Shown: positions 7,989 to 25,900 of the stretch, in pieces
Layout of the letters: every line of letters starts with the position of its first letter
How positions within the stretch are numbered: the stretch's first letter is position 1
Assembly (NCBI GenBank): GCA_903831305.1
Contig: CAIKXE010000012.1
Location: 1-32,759, forward strand
Source of the DNA: an uncultured bacterium
GTDB taxonomy: Bacteria; Patescibacteriota; Minisyncoccia; Phycocordibacterales; GWA1-40-21
DNA length: 32,759 bases
Direction: 5' to 3'
Translations under genes and position numbers: made by a program
The notes under the pieces: model-generated
The model's database searches: none
Seen by the model: the letters and a program-made list of their open reading frames with translations, nothing else
Told to the model about the DNA's origin: nothing

Positions 7989-9002
7989 TTAGCGTTTGGC
8001 AATAATAGATTTTTTATAAACATCTAGATGCTCCAGGGCAATACCGGTGCCTTTGGCTACACAATACATTGGGTCCTTGGCTACCACGGCTTTTACTCCA
8101 GTGCGACGAAAAACTAATTCTGCCATATTACGAAGTTGCGATGAACCACCGGTCATAATGATACCCTGGTCAATAATATCCGCCGCCAATTCTGGTGGGG
8201 TTTCTTGCAAAACATCCTTGATGGCCTTTATCATATCCCGGAGTTCCTTGGCTATCGCCTTGACAATCTCATTAGTTTTTATTTCCGCGGTTCGTGGTAA
8301 TCCAGACAAGAAATCCCGCCCTTTGATGGTCATTGTGAGCTCCTCTTCCATCGGCACGGCAGAACCCACATTGATTTTTATCTCCTCCGCAGTTTTATCA
8401 CCGATCGCTAGGTTAAAAGTTTTCTTAATGTAGTCAGTGATCGCATAATCAATTTTATTACCGGCACACTTTACGGAAGTAGATGACACAATACCGCCAA
8501 GGGAAATCACCGCCACATCTGTTGTTCCACCACCTATGTCCACAATCATATGACCCATCGGCTCTTGAATCGGAATCCCCGCCCCAATCGCTGCTAGAAT
8601 AGGTTCCTTGACCACATAAGCATTTTTGGCCCCCGCTTTCATCGCTGCCTCAATCACCGCCCGGCGTTCGGTAGAGGTGACCCCGGCCGGCACAGATACC
8701 ATCACCTCCGGCTTAAACAGATTCCACCGGCCAAGCGCCTTATCTATAAAATAGCGAAGCATCGCCTCTGTCACACGATAATCAGCGATCACGCCGTCTT
8801 TCATCGGCTGATATGCAATGATACTATCTGGCGTCTTGCCCAACATCTTTTTAGCCTCAGTCCCCACCGCCAAAATCTTATTATCCTGCTCGGAGACGGC
8901 CACCACCGAAGGTTCAAAAAGTACCACCCCTTTGCCTGGCAAAAAAACCAGAGTATTAGCTGTACCAAGGTCAATTCCAATTTTTTTAACGAAAAACGAC
9001 AT
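7989..9002 (-). CDS. mreB: Rod shape-determining protein MreB (ORF open to 9038; start at MSFF preferred)
   Basis: KKIGIDLGTANTLVFLPGKGVV, VDIGGGTTDVAVISLGG, GIIMTGGSSQLRNM. Confidence 0.95.
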   Translation of the reverse strand: MSFFVKKIGIDLGTANTLVFLPGKGVVLFEPSVVAVSEQDNKILAVGTEAKKMLGKTPDSIIAYQPMKDGVIADYRVTEAMLRYFIDKALGRWNLFKPEVMVSVPAGVTSTERRAVIEAAMKAGAKNAYVVKEPILAAIGAGIPIQEPMGHMIVDIGGGTTDVAVISLGGIVSSTSVKCAGNKIDYAITDYIKKTFNLAIGDKTAEEIKINVGSAVPMEEELTMTIKGRDFLSGLPRTAEIKTNEIVKAIAKELRDMIKAIKDVLQETPPELAADIIDQGIIMTGGSSQLRNMAELVFRRTGVKAVVAKDPMYCVAKGTGIALEHLDVYKKSIIAKR

Positions 9003-9010
9003 ATAGTCAT

Positions 9011-9038
9011 ATATTAAACTTTTTATGACATTTTGCAA
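9011..9038 (-). promoter_or_regulatory. mreB promoter TTGCAA-16-TAATAT
   Basis: Minus strand -35 at 9033-9038, -10 at 9011-9016, 8 nt before the ATG (leaderless layout). Confidence 0.55.
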
Positions 9039-9046
9039 ATCAAACC

Positions 9047-9066
9047 CCGGTTTAGGGCTAAATCGG
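9047..9066. promoter_or_regulatory. Candidate operator dyad CCGGTTTAG-GG-CTAAATCGG
   Basis: 9-bp inverted repeat (one G/T mismatch) between the -35 boxes of two divergent promoters. Confidence 0.55.
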
Positions 9067-9069
9067 TCT

Positions 9070-9098
9070 TTGCAATCTTATAGCACATATGCTATACT
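9070..9098 (+). promoter_or_regulatory. HTH-murA promoter TTGCAA-17-TATACT
   Basis: -35 at 9070-9075, -10 at 9093-9098. Confidence 0.65.
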
Positions 9099-9118
9099 AT
9101 CATCCATATTAGTTTAAT

Positions 9119-10666
9119 TTGCCCCAAAGCGAATCAAAATTTGTTCGGGCTATAAAAATTATGCCGGATACATTATCAAACATTGGTCACCTGATTAAGG
9201 AACTTCGTGAGAGACGCAATATCACCCAAAGCGAATTTGCGGAAAAACTGGGTACTACCCAAAGCGCTATTGCCCGCATGGAGAGCGGAGAACAAAATCT
9301 GACGACAGAAATGATTTCCAAAATAAGTGAGGCTCTGGGGCGAGAGATAGTCAGTGTCTCTACCGGAGCTATAAATTTTCAGATTGACGGTGGTCACAAG
9401 CTCAGCGGTTCAGTTATAACCAAAACTTCTAAAAACGGGGCTATGGGGGTGATTTGTGCTTCCCTCTTAAATCAAGGCCAGACTATTATTAAAAATGTTC
9501 CCAAAATTGAGGAGGTCTACCGGATGATTGAGGTTTTACAGAGTATTAATGTCTCCGTCAAATGGGTAAACAATGATTTAGAGATTAACCCCGGAAAAAT
9601 AACTCTAAAAACAATAAATCGTGAATCGGCGGAAAAAACTAGAAGTATCATCATGTTGATTGGGCCACTGATTCACTTCTTAAAAAAGTTTTCTCTGCCA
9701 CAGTCCGGTGGTTGCAAATTAGGGGCCAGGACGCTTACTCCGCATTTTTTTGCTTTAGAAAACTTTGGCGTTAAAATTGAGACAAAATCAACTAGTTATG
9801 AGATTTCATCAGAAAAACTGGAACCAGCGGAGTTTCCTTTGTATGAATCTGGAGACACGGTGACGGAGAACACCATCATGGCCGCCGCCCTCATCCCTGG
9901 AAAGACGGTTATCAAATTTGCCTCAGCCAACTATATGGTCCAAGATGTTTGTTTTTTCCTAGAAAAATGTGGCGTTAAAATAGACGGCATTGGGACAACG
10001 ACCCTGACTGTTCACGGCATAGAAAGGATAAACATGCCAGTTACTTATTATCTCGCTGAGGACCCCATTGACTCCATGTTTTTTATTGCCGCCGGTATTG
10101 TCACCAATTCGGCGATGGAGATAAAAAGATGCCCGATCGACTTTTTGGAAATTGAATTATTAAAATTAGAAAAGATGGGGCTAAAATATAGACGGACTAA
10201 AACCTATAAAGCCTTAAATGGTCAGGCTAACCTTGTGGACCTAAAGTTATTTCCTTCAAAATTAAAGGCCCTAGAAGAAAAAATTGAGTGCCGGCCCTAC
10301 CCAGGACTAAACATGGATAATCTCCCCTTCTTTGGCATTATTGCCACCCAGGCCGAGGGCACCACCTTGCTACATGATTGGCCCTATGAAAAGCGCGCCA
10401 TCCATATCAAGGATATTGACAAACTGGGTGCAGATACAAACCTAGCTGATCCACATCGCCTTTTTATTACCGGTGTCACTAAATTAAAGCCAGCCGAGGT
10501 GATTTGTCCACCAGCGCTTCGTCCGGCGGCTATCCTTCTTATTGGGATGCTTGCCGCTAAAGGCAAATCTATCCTTCGAAATGTGTATAGTATAAACCGC
10601 GGTTATGAGGAAATTACCGAAAGATTAAATTCTCTTGGCGCAAAAATAAAAATCCTCCGCGACTAA
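9119..10666 (+). CDS. murA: N-terminal XRE-type HTH fused to UDP-N-acetylglucosamine 1-carboxyvinyltransferase (MurA-like); start TTG 9119 or ATG 9161
   Basis: HTH: LIKELRERRNITQSEFAEKLGTTQSAIARMESGEQNLT; MurA: TSKNGAM, SGGCKLGART (catalytic Cys), NMDNLPFFGIIATQAEGTT, EKRAIHI. Confidence 0.88.
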   Translation: MPQSESKFVRAIKIMPDTLSNIGHLIKELRERRNITQSEFAEKLGTTQSAIARMESGEQNLTTEMISKISEALGREIVSVSTGAINFQIDGGHKLSGSVITKTSKNGAMGVICASLLNQGQTIIKNVPKIEEVYRMIEVLQSINVSVKWVNNDLEINPGKITLKTINRESAEKTRSIIMLIGPLIHFLKKFSLPQSGGCKLGARTLTPHFFALENFGVKIETKSTSYEISSEKLEPAEFPLYESGDTVTENTIMAAALIPGKTVIKFASANYMVQDVCFFLEKCGVKIDGIGTTTLTVHGIERINMPVTYYLAEDPIDSMFFIAAGIVTNSAMEIKRCPIDFLEIELLKLEKMGLKYRRTKTYKALNGQANLVDLKLFPSKLKALEEKIECRPYPGLNMDNLPFFGIIATQAEGTTLLHDWPYEKRAIHIKDIDKLGADTNLADPHRLFITGVTKLKPAEVICPPALRPAAILLIGMLAAKGKSILRNVYSINRGYEEITERLNSLGAKIKILRD

Positions 10667-14065: not shown

Positions 14066-15175
14066 TTACGGCTTCTCGGTATTATAAATACTCAGTACCT
14101 CCTCGGCCGAGAGAGCCTTATTATAAATACGGACGTTGTCAATAGAACCATTAAAAGAACCACTTCTGTTGCCCCAGCAATAAGCACCGATATCTAGAGT
14201 TCCCCCAATAGGGGTATTTAAATTTTTTGGAGAACTAATAACAAGACCACCATTTTTATAAATCTTCATATTTGTAGAATCGTAAGTTCCTACGATATGA
14301 TACCAGGTATTATTAGTAGATATCTCATTTGTGGTAGTCACAAGATTATACCAAGAAACACCTGAGACATAAGAGCTTAATCTTATTTCATAGCCTTCGG
14401 TTAATAACATAAAGTCAACATTAGTACTAGAATGGGGAGACTTACATAAAATCCTCCCAGTAGCACTGGCATCTATTTGTTTTACCCACACACTCAGTGT
14501 GTAGTTTTGAACATTCAATGATCCAGCATTATTTACCATATTAATATATTTACTCGTCCCATCAAACGCATAAGCGGTATTAGCCAGTCCTTTCACTCCA
14601 GTAGTTGCCGTGGCACCAGTAACAGTCCCATTGTTACCGCCAATCAAGTCCAAAGCGGTCCCAGCTCCCGCATCATCAAAGCTCCAATAAGAGACTAGAC
14701 GATCAGGGAAGACTCCAGAAGAGTCACCAATAGTAGTGGTTTGAGAGAGTTCCGTATTATCAGACTTTAGATAGACCTTGTTAGCAGTGTTTTTAGCCAC
14801 TAGGTAGCCAGTGGAGGTACCAGAAGACTGGGGGTCAGTGGGGATAGAGACTAAATAGGTGGGCACGAGGGCCGAGAGATCAGCTTTGTTAGTACAGCTG
14901 AGACTATGACCGGTAGAAGTGGCTTCGGTATCACAGATTTCCGTGAGAGTGGTGGTGACGGAAGAAGGGTAAGTACCGTTATCTATATAATATTGGTATA
15001 AAGCTTTGTTGATTTCTGCTAGATTAGCCTTCCTTTGGGTATTACGGACTTGGGAGAACATCTTGATGGGGTTTAGGGCCAGGATGACGATACTGGCGAG
15101 GATGGCGATGATACCGATGACGAGGAGGATTTCGAGTAATGTAAAACCGGACTTTTGTGTGTTTCTAGCTGACAT
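14066..15175 (-). CDS. Type IV pilin-like protein with C-terminal LamG/concanavalin-like domain
   Basis: Prepilin motif SGFTLLEILLVIGIIAILASIVILA; LVSYWSFDDAGAGTALDLIGGNNGTVTGA...GSIDNVRIYNKALSAEEV. Confidence 0.88.
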   Translation of the reverse strand: MSARNTQKSGFTLLEILLVIGIIAILASIVILALNPIKMFSQVRNTQRKANLAEINKALYQYYIDNGTYPSSVTTTLTEICDTEATSTGHSLSCTNKADLSALVPTYLVSIPTDPQSSGTSTGYLVAKNTANKVYLKSDNTELSQTTTIGDSSGVFPDRLVSYWSFDDAGAGTALDLIGGNNGTVTGATATTGVKGLANTAYAFDGTSKYINMVNNAGSLNVQNYTLSVWVKQIDASATGRILCKSPHSSTNVDFMLLTEGYEIRLSSYVSGVSWYNLVTTTNEISTNNTWYHIVGTYDSTNMKIYKNGGLVISSPKNLNTPIGGTLDIGAYCWGNRSGSFNGSIDNVRIYNKALSAEEVLSIYNTEKP

Positions 15176-21751: not shown

Positions 21752-22909
21752 CTAATCCTCCAAACAACGCACCGAGAAACCAGAATTTTTACCAACCGTA
21801 TACCGGCCTACCGTGGCAAAACTCAAGGACAAATCCCTCCTCCAGGCATTTGAACTCAACTCAGACGATGTCCACATGCGCGTAACCAAACCCAATTCCA
21901 TAAAGGAACCATCGGTCCAGTAGCGGCCAGCTAAAAGGCCCTGAAAACCAGAAGTACCACAGGGAGTCCGGCCACCGCACAGGCCGGTATCCTTAAGCTG
22001 ATCACCCACCCTTGGTATAAGGCCACGCTCATTATTAGAGTCATCCGCACAAAGGTTTGGCTCACTACCACGGTCAGTACACATGCCTAATGCTACCTCT
22101 AGTGTTTTGTATTCCTCGTCAGTAGGAACGTGCCAACCAGTAAGACAAATACCTTGGGCTCCGGCGGTGGTTACATAATTCATCATCTCGTCCCACTGGT
22201 AGAGACCACCATAAGTGGTACAGTTAGCTTCCGAGTTATCATAACAATATTTTTCAATAACTGAGTTGTCTGTTTGAGTGGTGACGCCGGTGACTAAAGT
22301 ACCCACGTTTAGATTCTGTTGCATCCAACATTGAGTACCAATAAGGACGGTGGTGTAGGTTTTAGAGTCACGGGTATCAGTGAGAGTAGAGCCACAAACA
22401 AATGGTATAACGACGTTACCCAAAGACACAGTATCATTTGATTCCGCTTGGCCAGCATACAGAGCAATCTTGTTGGCTGTATCTTTCATCACACTATATT
22501 TAGTGGAACTAGCGGTAGACTGTGGATCAGTGGGTATAGCGACTAGATAGGTAGGGACAAGATATGAGAGATCCGCCAAACCAACACAGCTGAGACTATG
22601 GCCGGTGGTAGTAGCACCAGTATTACAGATTTCCGTCAGCGTAGAGGTGACAGAAACTGGGTAGCGGGAGTTATCAATATAATACTGATAGAGAGCTTTG
22701 TTTATCTCCGCTAAATTGCTTTTACGCTGGGTATTACGGACACTAGCCAGTTGCCTGTTCGGGTTAATAGCTAAAATGACGATACCGGCCAGGACGGCAA
22801 TGATACCGATGACGAGGAGGATTTCAAGTAATGTAAACCCGCTCACTAAGTTTTTTCTAGAAGTTAGTGTGTGGTTAAAACCTCTACCCCTTTTAGCCTT
22901 CGTTATCAT
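21752..22909 (-). CDS. Type IV pilin-like protein with C-terminal FISUMP (Fibrobacter succinogenes major paralogous) domain; ORF open to 22987
   Basis: SGFTLLEILLVIGIIAVLAGIVILA; YTTVLIGTQCWMQQNLNVG...LTGWHVPTDEEYKTLE...FSVRCLED. Confidence 0.88.
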   Translation of the reverse strand: MITKAKRGRGFNHTLTSRKNLVSGFTLLEILLVIGIIAVLAGIVILAINPNRQLASVRNTQRKSNLAEINKALYQYYIDNSRYPVSVTSTLTEICNTGATTTGHSLSCVGLADLSYLVPTYLVAIPTDPQSTASSTKYSVMKDTANKIALYAGQAESNDTVSLGNVVIPFVCGSTLTDTRDSKTYTTVLIGTQCWMQQNLNVGTLVTGVTTQTDNSVIEKYCYDNSEANCTTYGGLYQWDEMMNYVTTAGAQGICLTGWHVPTDEEYKTLEVALGMCTDRGSEPNLCADDSNNERGLIPRVGDQLKDTGLCGGRTPCGTSGFQGLLAGRYWTDGSFMELGLVTRMWTSSELSSNAWRRDLSLSFATVGRYTVGKNSGFSVRCLED

Positions 22910-22976
22910 AATACTAGATATTATAGCAAAAAGAATTTTGTTAGCAAAATCCCAATGGATAAAGTATAATACCGCC

Positions 22977-25900
22977 ATGCCAGCCAAATTTATCCATCTA
23001 CATAATCACTCCCACTATTCCCTGCTTAATGCCCTACCTAAAATACCCGAGCTGATTAGTGAAGCCAAAAAATATGAGATGCCCGCCCTGGCTCTGACGG
23101 ATAATGCCAACCTCTATGGGGCGATTGAATTTTATAAAGCCTGTAAGAAAGCAGAGATCAAACCCATCATCGGGGCGGATATGTATGTGGCCACCAGGAC
23201 CAGAAATGATAAGCAAGGTGGAGTGGACAATCGTCGGTCACGCTTGGTCTTATTGGTAAAGGACTTAACTGGCTATAAAAACTTAATCAAATTAGTCACC
23301 CAGGCCAACCTAGAGGGATTCTACTATAAGCCTCGTATAGACCGCGAGCTTATTGAAAAATATCATGAAGGATTAATCTGTATTTCTCCATCTTTTTCTG
23401 GTGCTACCACCCAAGCCTTGAAGAATGGAAACCGAGAGGAAGCCGAGAGACTGGTGGCTTGGTACAAGCAAGTATACGGAGCTGATAACTTTTATTTAGA
23501 ACTCACTCACCATCCGGAGATTGATGGTCACGAGGAAACAATGAAAAAGATTGTGGACCTGGCTAAGGAGACCAATACTCCACTGGTAGCCGCTCATGAT
23601 ACTTATTATTTGCATCAAGAAGATAAAAAAGCCCGGGACACCTTGCTCCTAGTAAACACCGCCGGAGATTTCTCAGACCGCAATTCGGAAAGTAATGAGG
23701 AAGATTTTTCTTTTATTTCACCAGACCGAGCTTTAGAACTTTTTAAAGACACACCAGAAGCGGTAGAGAATACTCTAAAGATTACTGACCAGTGTAATCT
23801 GGAGCTCAAACTCGGCACCTGGGTCTTCCCAGATTTCAAGGTGGAGAGTGGGCTCACTCCAGATGAAGAATTAAAAAGGCTGGCTTATGAAGGCTTCAAG
23901 GTGCGTGGCTTGGAACAGACCAAAGAATATTTGGACCGCCTGGAATACGAGCTTAAAGTGATTAAAGATAAGGGCTATGCACCATACTTTCTGGTGGTGG
24001 CCGATCTCCTCCGTTTTGCTCATGCCAATAAAATCCTGACCAACATCAGAGGATCCGTGGCTGGCTCCCTCACCACTTATCTTACCAAAATTACCAATGT
24101 AAACCCGATTGAGTTCAAGCTCCCCTTTGAGCGTTTTCTAAATCCCGAGCGCCCCTCGGCCCCCGATATTGATATGGACTATGCGGATAATAGACGAGAT
24201 GAGGTGATTGCCTATGCCAAAGGTAAATATGGAGCAGATAAAGTAGCGCAGATCGGTACCTTTGGTACCATGATGGCCAGAGGATCGGTGAAGGACGTGG
24301 CCCGGGCGATGGGCTTCCCTTACACTCTCGGTGACCGCATTTCCAAACTCATTCCCATGGGCGCCCAAGGCTTCCCGATGACCATTGACCGTGCCCTCGC
24401 TGAAGTGGCCGAGCTAAAGGAAATTTATGATAAAGAGGATGATGTCAAAACTATCATTGATATGGCCAAGAAGGTAGAAGGCTGTGCTCGTCACATCTCG
24501 GTGCATGCCGCCGGTGTGGTGATGGCCCCGGCACCACTGACAGATTTTACTCCGCTCCAGTTTGATACAAAGGGAGAAGAAAAAATCATCACCCAGTATG
24601 ATATGCATGCCGTGGAAGATGCTGGACTTTTAAAGTTTGATTTCTTGGGAATTAAAAATCTTGCCATTTTATCTAATGCCGTTTCTTTGGCTAAAAAGAT
24701 TGATGAAGTGGAGGTAGATATAGAAAATATTCCCATGGATGATCCCAAGACTTTTGATTTACTGGCCAAGGGTGAGACCACTGGTTTATTTCAGCTCAAT
24801 GGTTCGGGGATGACCAAATATTTAAAGGAACTTAAACCATCCACCATCCATGATATCAACGCCATGGTGGCCCTCTACCGCCCAGGCCCGATTGAATCTA
24901 TCCCAGAATATATAAAACGTAAACATAACCCGCGCACTATTCGTTTCCTAGACCCACGGATGAAAGATATTCTCTCCCAATCCTTTGGGGTGATCACCTA
25001 TCAGGATGACGTCATGCTCATTGCTATCAAGCTCGGTGGTTATTCTTGGCTGGAGGCGGATAAACTCCGTAAAGCCATGGGTAAAAAAATCCCCGCCGAG
25101 ATGGAAGCTCAAAAAAGCAAACTCAAAGAAGGCTTGCTCAAAAACGGTATGAGTCAGGAAAAGGCGGATGAGCTGTGGTCCTTGATTGAACCATTTGCCG
25201 CCTACGGATTTAACAAGGCGCATGCCGCAAGCTATGGCCGAGTAGCCTACCAGACTGCTTATATGAAAGCAAACTTCCCCGCCACCTATATGGCTTGTGT
25301 ACTGACCGCGGATTCTGGAGACGTGGAAAAGATTGCCGAATTTATCAATGATTGTAAAAAGATAGGCATCCCCGTCTTGCCACCAAATATTAATGAAAGC
25401 TTTCAAGCCTTCACCGTGGTCAAAGCGCCCAGCGTGCGAGATACCATCCGTTTTGGACTCACCACTATAAAAAACTTTGGTGAAGGGATAGCCAATACTA
25501 TCATTGAAGAGCGAAAGAAAAATGGAAAGTTTATTTCTCTCTCAAACTTTCTAGACCGGATTAAAGATAGAAATTTAAATAAAAAGTCGCTTGAAGCTCT
25601 TATCAAAGCTGGAGCCCTAGATGAATTTGGTGAACGCGGCCAGATGCTTGGCAACGTTGAAAATATGTTAGCTTACTCCAAGGAAGCAGGTAAGACATCT
25701 GAAAACCAAGACTCCCTTTTTGGAACATATGTAGCAGGCTTAAATGATGCAAATAATTTTCGTCTGCAGGATACTTTACCGGCCACGGCCACAGAGAGAC
25801 TAGCTTGGGAGAGAGAACTTCTGGGCTTATACTTGTCTGGCCACCCCTTGGATAAATTTAAAAAAACTATTGAGGAGAAAAATTATAATATCAAAAATGC

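Follow-up and report, generated by a model that had tools for sequence, protein, structure and literature searches.

BirA, the group II biotin protein ligase, holds an enzyme and a DNA-binding repressor in one protein, and the PutA-type trigger enzymes hold the two in one chain (PMC6978683). A comparable arrangement is encoded at positions 9161 to 10666 of the plus strand in the 32,759-nucleotide stretch of DNA analysed here (the window), which lies on contig C12 of a 760-kb Patescibacteria genome (G000): one open reading frame (ORF) joins a helix-turn-helix (HTH) domain of the XRE type to MurA. The resulting HTH-MurA protein is very probably its own repressor, acting through a palindrome on its own promoter, which is the best explanation of the sequence comparisons described below. 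Its relatives that have no HTH parallel the group I biotin ligases, which have no DNA-binding domain. BirA differs in its enzyme, HTH type and pathway, and it represses the biotin operon, whereas the targets of HTH-MurA would be its own gene and a small membrane ORF; ligand control of DNA binding is established for BirA. PutA belongs to proline catabolism and not to peptidoglycan synthesis. The HTH of the fusion also weakly matches the NCBIfam model PRK08154, an XRE plus shikimate-kinase-like regulator of the BoxR type, whose work as a sensor-regulator lies in anaerobic benzoate catabolism. There too an XRE HTH is fused to an enzyme-like domain, but the enzyme domain of HTH-MurA is the only MurA of its genome. 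The HigA-like XRE antitoxins resemble the fusion in their HTH and in the class of operator found at their own genes, but are small stand-alone proteins to which no enzyme is fused. Canonical MurA shares its fold and most catalytic residues with HTH-MurA; the fusion differs in its extra N-terminal HTH and in a changed Asp369 position, and is 25-30% identical to solved MurA structures.

The fusion gene starts at ATG 9161 and encodes 501 amino acids (aa). An in-frame TTG at 9119 is a possible alternative start, and protein conservation begins near 9161. That HTH and MurA share one reading frame, as the sequence-only reading of this DNA had stated, is borne out by Pfam. The XRE/HTH_3 DNA-binding domain (residues 12-63; 9194-9349, plus strand) matches HTH_3 at 2.4e-16, with 59.9 bits against a curated cut-off of 23, and has four helices in the structural model. 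Its recognition helix segment, GTTQSAIAR (residues 31-39; 9251-9277, plus strand), includes the T/S residue 33, which covaries with the operator. The enolpyruvyl transferase (MurA) domain (residues 76-489; 9386-10627, plus strand) is complete, matches EPSP_synthase at 1.3e-45, and contains all of the signatures SKNGAM, GGCKLGAR, NMDNL and EKRAIH that had been picked out in it. The AlphaFold model of the fusion has a mean predicted local distance difference test (pLDDT) score of 87 and a predicted template modelling (pTM) score of 0.81, and it compares with MurA crystal structures at template modelling scores (TM-scores, by target length) of up to 0.94.

The fusion is the sole PF00275 gene of its genome, and no canonical murA was found there as a backup. 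With genes for MurB and the Mur ligases there as well, the fusion probably serves as the working MurA of the cell. It scores above the cut-off of NCBIfam PRK09369 (UDP-N-acetylglucosamine (UDP-GlcNAc) 1-carboxyvinyltransferase; 318.6 versus 297). The residues K91, N92, R161, C185, R190, D386, R412, R454 and R480 of its MurA domain retain the equivalents of Escherichia coli Lys22, Asn23, Arg91, Cys115, Arg120, Asp305, Arg331, Arg371 and Arg397, and those of Lys22, Arg91, Cys115, Arg120, Asp305, Arg331, Arg371 and Arg397 are present in the window protein and in 23 of 23 other rows compared. In a survey of 60 genomes (this genome and its relatives), 32 have a member of the same MurA clade and 21 an ordinary MurA (27-33% identity); no genome combines the two, and seven have neither. 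The genomes without a detected MurA domain are G008, G012, G036, G044, G046, G055 and G056, some of which are listed as 92-100% complete; it is possible that these have lost the first step of the pathway.

Upstream of the fusion gene, the plus-strand promoter proposed earlier is confirmed by a promoter scan, with a -35 box TTGCAA (9070-9075), a spacer of 17 and a -10 box TATACT with a TG extension (9093-9098). Overlapping the -10 box is an inverted repeat, TATAGCACATATGCTATA (9079-9096), which the sequence-only reading missed, and it is this repeat that proves to be conserved when upstream regions are set side by side. The HTH is predicted to bind there. Searches with the consensus ATADCAYATRTGHTAT covered 200 bp upstream of each gene, with dinucleotide shuffles as controls; the consensus was written after the first ~50 upstream regions, which are no independent test of it, and the later sets (L090-L209) behave like them. 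With at most one mismatch the site is found in 76 of 134 distinct HTH-bearing homologues, in none of 29 HTH-less members and in none of 20 ordinary murA genes (shuffles, 0.07%). With at most two, the counts are 99/134, 2/29 and 0/20 (shuffles, 0.8%). The difference between HTH-bearing and HTH-less members is significant (Fisher 1e-11), and L019 and L023, which count as misses, have perfect sites just past 200 bp.

The site is also lost along with the HTH. A tree of 123 MurA domains shows 10 changes of HTH state, and in eight independent contrasts the site follows the HTH in 7.7 on average and never does the opposite (p ~0.008). In the HTH-less G003, G020 and G001 (the last of the same genus), the palindrome has lost its left arm and keeps the -10 half, TATG(C/T)TATACT, as expected if that arm is retained only through HTH binding. 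Base preference within the site varies with the recognition helix as well: position 4 of the half-site is G (ATAGCA) in 59 of 62 half-sites of members with a TTQ helix, and T, C or A in 122 of 126 half-sites of members with a TSQ helix, in counts that include related, non-independent sequences. Co-switches of helix and half-site are visible at L027/L156, L016/L093 and L040.

A second candidate target lies elsewhere in the same genome, which contains exactly two perfect sites, one at the fusion promoter and one at C2:46961-46976. The latter precedes a membrane ORF of 56-57 aa by 170 nt. The locus (L065:1501-1857, equivalent to G000:C2:46961-47317) is followed by tRNA-Thr and an ftsE-like gene. 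In other genomes homologous small ORFs are likewise preceded, at 165-320 nt, by a site, which has the AGC form in G002, G007 and G010 and the ATC form in G018 and G026; the fusions of the first three are TTQ where the helix is readable, and the last two are TSQ genomes. In the HTH-less G001 the small-ORF promoter reads GTCAAATATATGCTATATT, with the left arm lost and the -10 kept. This target is not universal, because the small ORF in G017, G019, G033 and G040 has no full site. No reliable Pfam family was found for the small membrane ORF, and an Rfam search of the 170-nt leader gave no match in it, only the adjoining tRNA being above the cut-off. Taken as a sequence-based case, operator conservation, HTH co-loss, helix/half-site covariation and the second target support the earlier suggestion that this MurA may be an enzyme-regulator binding its own promoter.

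Similar sites occur near genes for XRE proteins that are not fused to MurA. A strict site pattern is present in 20 of 380 genomes across the phylum, and in five of 12 examined loci with a site away from a fusion, the start of a stand-alone XRE gene lies within ~45 nt (L259, L260, L261, L268 and L271); the others are unexplained or due to chance. The gene in L261 has the same GTTQSAIAR helix and an exact ATAGCATATATGCTAT site 9 nt upstream of its start, and L073 is a similar stand-alone case. These HigA-like genes (L073, L259, L260, L261, L268 and L271) have ATAACATATATGTTAT or ATAGCATATATGCTAT palindromes just 5' of the start. Such genes are a possible source of the MurA HTH.

The clade spans the Patescibacteria (among others Taylor-, Nomura-, Zambryski-, Kaiser-, Uhr-, Kerfeld-, Doudna- and Saccharibacteria) and extends to Streptomyces and Knoellia. 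Fusions in the last two genera start ~30 nt downstream of ATCTCATATCTGAGAT-type sites, a pattern that occurs only once or twice per Streptomyces or Knoellia genome of 3.6-9.6 Mb. The actinobacterial HTH-MurA proteins (L160 and L163-L166) are nested within a Saccharibacteria group (L161 and L162), with a branch value of 98 by a quick method. Since Saccharibacteria live on actinobacterial hosts, gene exchange between epibiont and host may explain this nesting.

In the mechanism that we propose, two HTH domains would bind the palindrome as a dimer, and the bound HTH-MurA would repress rather than activate: because the palindrome covers the extended -10 box, the protein sitting on it would cover that box too and block RNA polymerase. 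The amount of MurA would thus limit its own transcription, a negative feedback, and the same HTH domain would also bind one further promoter, that of a small membrane-protein gene. On the best reading of these data, HTH-MurA would be an enzyme-autorepressor that is wide in Patescibacteria and present in Streptomyces and Knoellia.

Several observations weigh against this reading. About one quarter of the HTH-bearing members have no recognisable consensus site, and several lineages (L205-L209) are without any. The correlation of helix and half-site is broken at L012 and L136, and a sign test of it on the tree met too few switches. A palindrome on the -10 box fits repression best without proving it. 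As regards the enzyme, the fusion misses the TIGR01072 murA equivalog cut-off (312.9 versus 392.7), and throughout the clade, regardless of the presence of an HTH, a CPPALRP motif (10505-10525, plus strand, in the window) stands in place of the canonical TDLRA stretch, with loss of E. coli Asp369. This residue is among those involved in ligand interaction in MurA (PMC4062475). For these two reasons catalysis by the fusion's MurA domain is rated as likely rather than as shown. The CPPALRP replacement may, in addition, affect fosfomycin binding or catalysis.

Whether the enzyme domain informs the DNA-binding domain is a separate matter. The HTH may be an antitoxin-type domain that has been captured and that, bound to its site, represses constitutively and irrespective of the state of the cell wall, giving gene-dosage homeostasis without any effect of ligand. 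This is a sub-case of autorepression by HTH-MurA, and we consider it a serious possibility, at somewhat less than even odds. The closely similar palindromes just upstream of the stand-alone HigA-like genes speak for it, as does the linker near residues 64-68 that joins HTH and MurA in the model: it is of low confidence, and mechanical coupling of the two domains is therefore not assured. Against it, fusion and site have been retained together over phylum-wide distances, though a separate autorepressor could give plain homeostasis too, and the membrane protein behind the second site is itself conserved. Alternatively, the sensing of substrate that the sequence-only reading had suggested is plausible though speculative: occupancy of the MurA domain by a UDP-sugar or phosphoenolpyruvate (PEP) could tune DNA binding, for example through a form bound to UDP-N-acetylmuramic acid (UDP-MurNAc). 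By the entry titles of crystal structures, MurA can bind UDP-MurNAc together with a covalently attached PEP, and UDP-MurNAc-bound MurA is a possible feedback signal. In its fullest form this idea is a one-protein peptidoglycan feedback loop, in which occupancy by UDP-GlcNAc/PEP or by UDP-MurNAc, a product made further down the pathway, would set the grip on DNA, and precursor flux would directly control murA and an envelope-acting small membrane protein, in Patescibacteria and, by gene exchange, in Actinobacteria; we put this forward tentatively, as something that may well not hold.

A dead sensor is an improbable reading of the MurA domain; on it the protein would no longer catalyse the MurA step and would be only a regulator binding a UDP-sugar, in the manner of the shikimate-kinase-like domain of BoxR. 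The clade-wide CPPALRP replacement and the missed equivalog cut-off would suit such a domain. However, none of the 32 clade-bearing genomes (this one included) has a second MurA, and HTH-less members of the clade persist as the only MurA of their genomes; the presence of MurB and the ligases and the retained active-site residues point the same way.

The sequence-only reading had the protein bind a different repeat, a dyad midway between divergent promoters, and thereby repress both itself and mreB. The mreB gene (7989-9002, minus strand, start ATG at 9002) is indeed the divergent neighbour of the fusion gene, and the dyad, CCGGTTTAGGGCTAAATCGG (9047-9066), exists midway between the two promoters; its role as an operator did not survive comparison. 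When the 158-bp intergenic region was shuffled 500 times, 93 of the shuffles contained an inverted repeat of its quality, which is chance level. None of the relatives with the mreB-murA arrangement carries the dyad: the best match has 6/20 mismatches, and G002, which is of the same genus and bears the HTH, has 9/20. The dyad therefore falls by the refuting condition that the sequence-only reading had itself set. Because it is unconserved and at chance level, the dyad is rejected as an operator. The minus-strand mreB promoter (9033-9038/9011-9016) scores under the threshold of the scanner. Control of mreB is likewise unsupported, because the mreB-murA gap varies from 48 to 995 bp among relatives while the conserved site keeps a short distance to murA, and because most fusion genes do not adjoin mreB, linkage being confined to part of the clade; with no site on the mreB side, mreB was rejected as a conserved target. 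Although many relatives within the order likewise have mreB divergent from the fusion, co-repression through the dyad is thus very improbable, the conserved site sitting instead on the murA -10 box. Elsewhere in the window, two minus-strand genes (14066-15175 and 21752-22987) encode proteins with a pilin-like GFTLLEILLVIGIIA start and long, unrelated C-terminal parts.

A Streptomyces fusion, in L249, is divergent from an aconitase gene. In Streptomyces coelicolor, SCO5998 (MurA2) adjoins acnA, SCO5999 (PMC12161575). Because of this shared aconitase neighbour, SCO5998 is probably a member of the HTH-MurA clade; Streptomyces differs from the genome studied here in having a second MurA. The papers found to name SCO5998 describe a DmdR1 site and a SigB promoter, and in their passages on it neither an HTH nor autoregulation is mentioned. 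A search of open-licence papers for an HTH-MurA fusion found none naming or describing one, and the architecture may already be listed in domain databases.

MurA, which fosfomycin targets, carries out the committed step of peptidoglycan synthesis; to our knowledge, how its level is set transcriptionally is unclear in most bacteria. In HTH-MurA, a single protein appears to serve as the enzyme and as the repressor of its own gene, and its predicted operator is defined. Patescibacteria are mostly uncultured, and the system reaches Streptomyces, which can be cultured and in which MurA2 is probably the orthologue. The HTH and an operator arm have repeatedly been lost together, and helix and half-site have changed jointly, which makes this family a clean natural record of the coevolution of a regulator and its operator.
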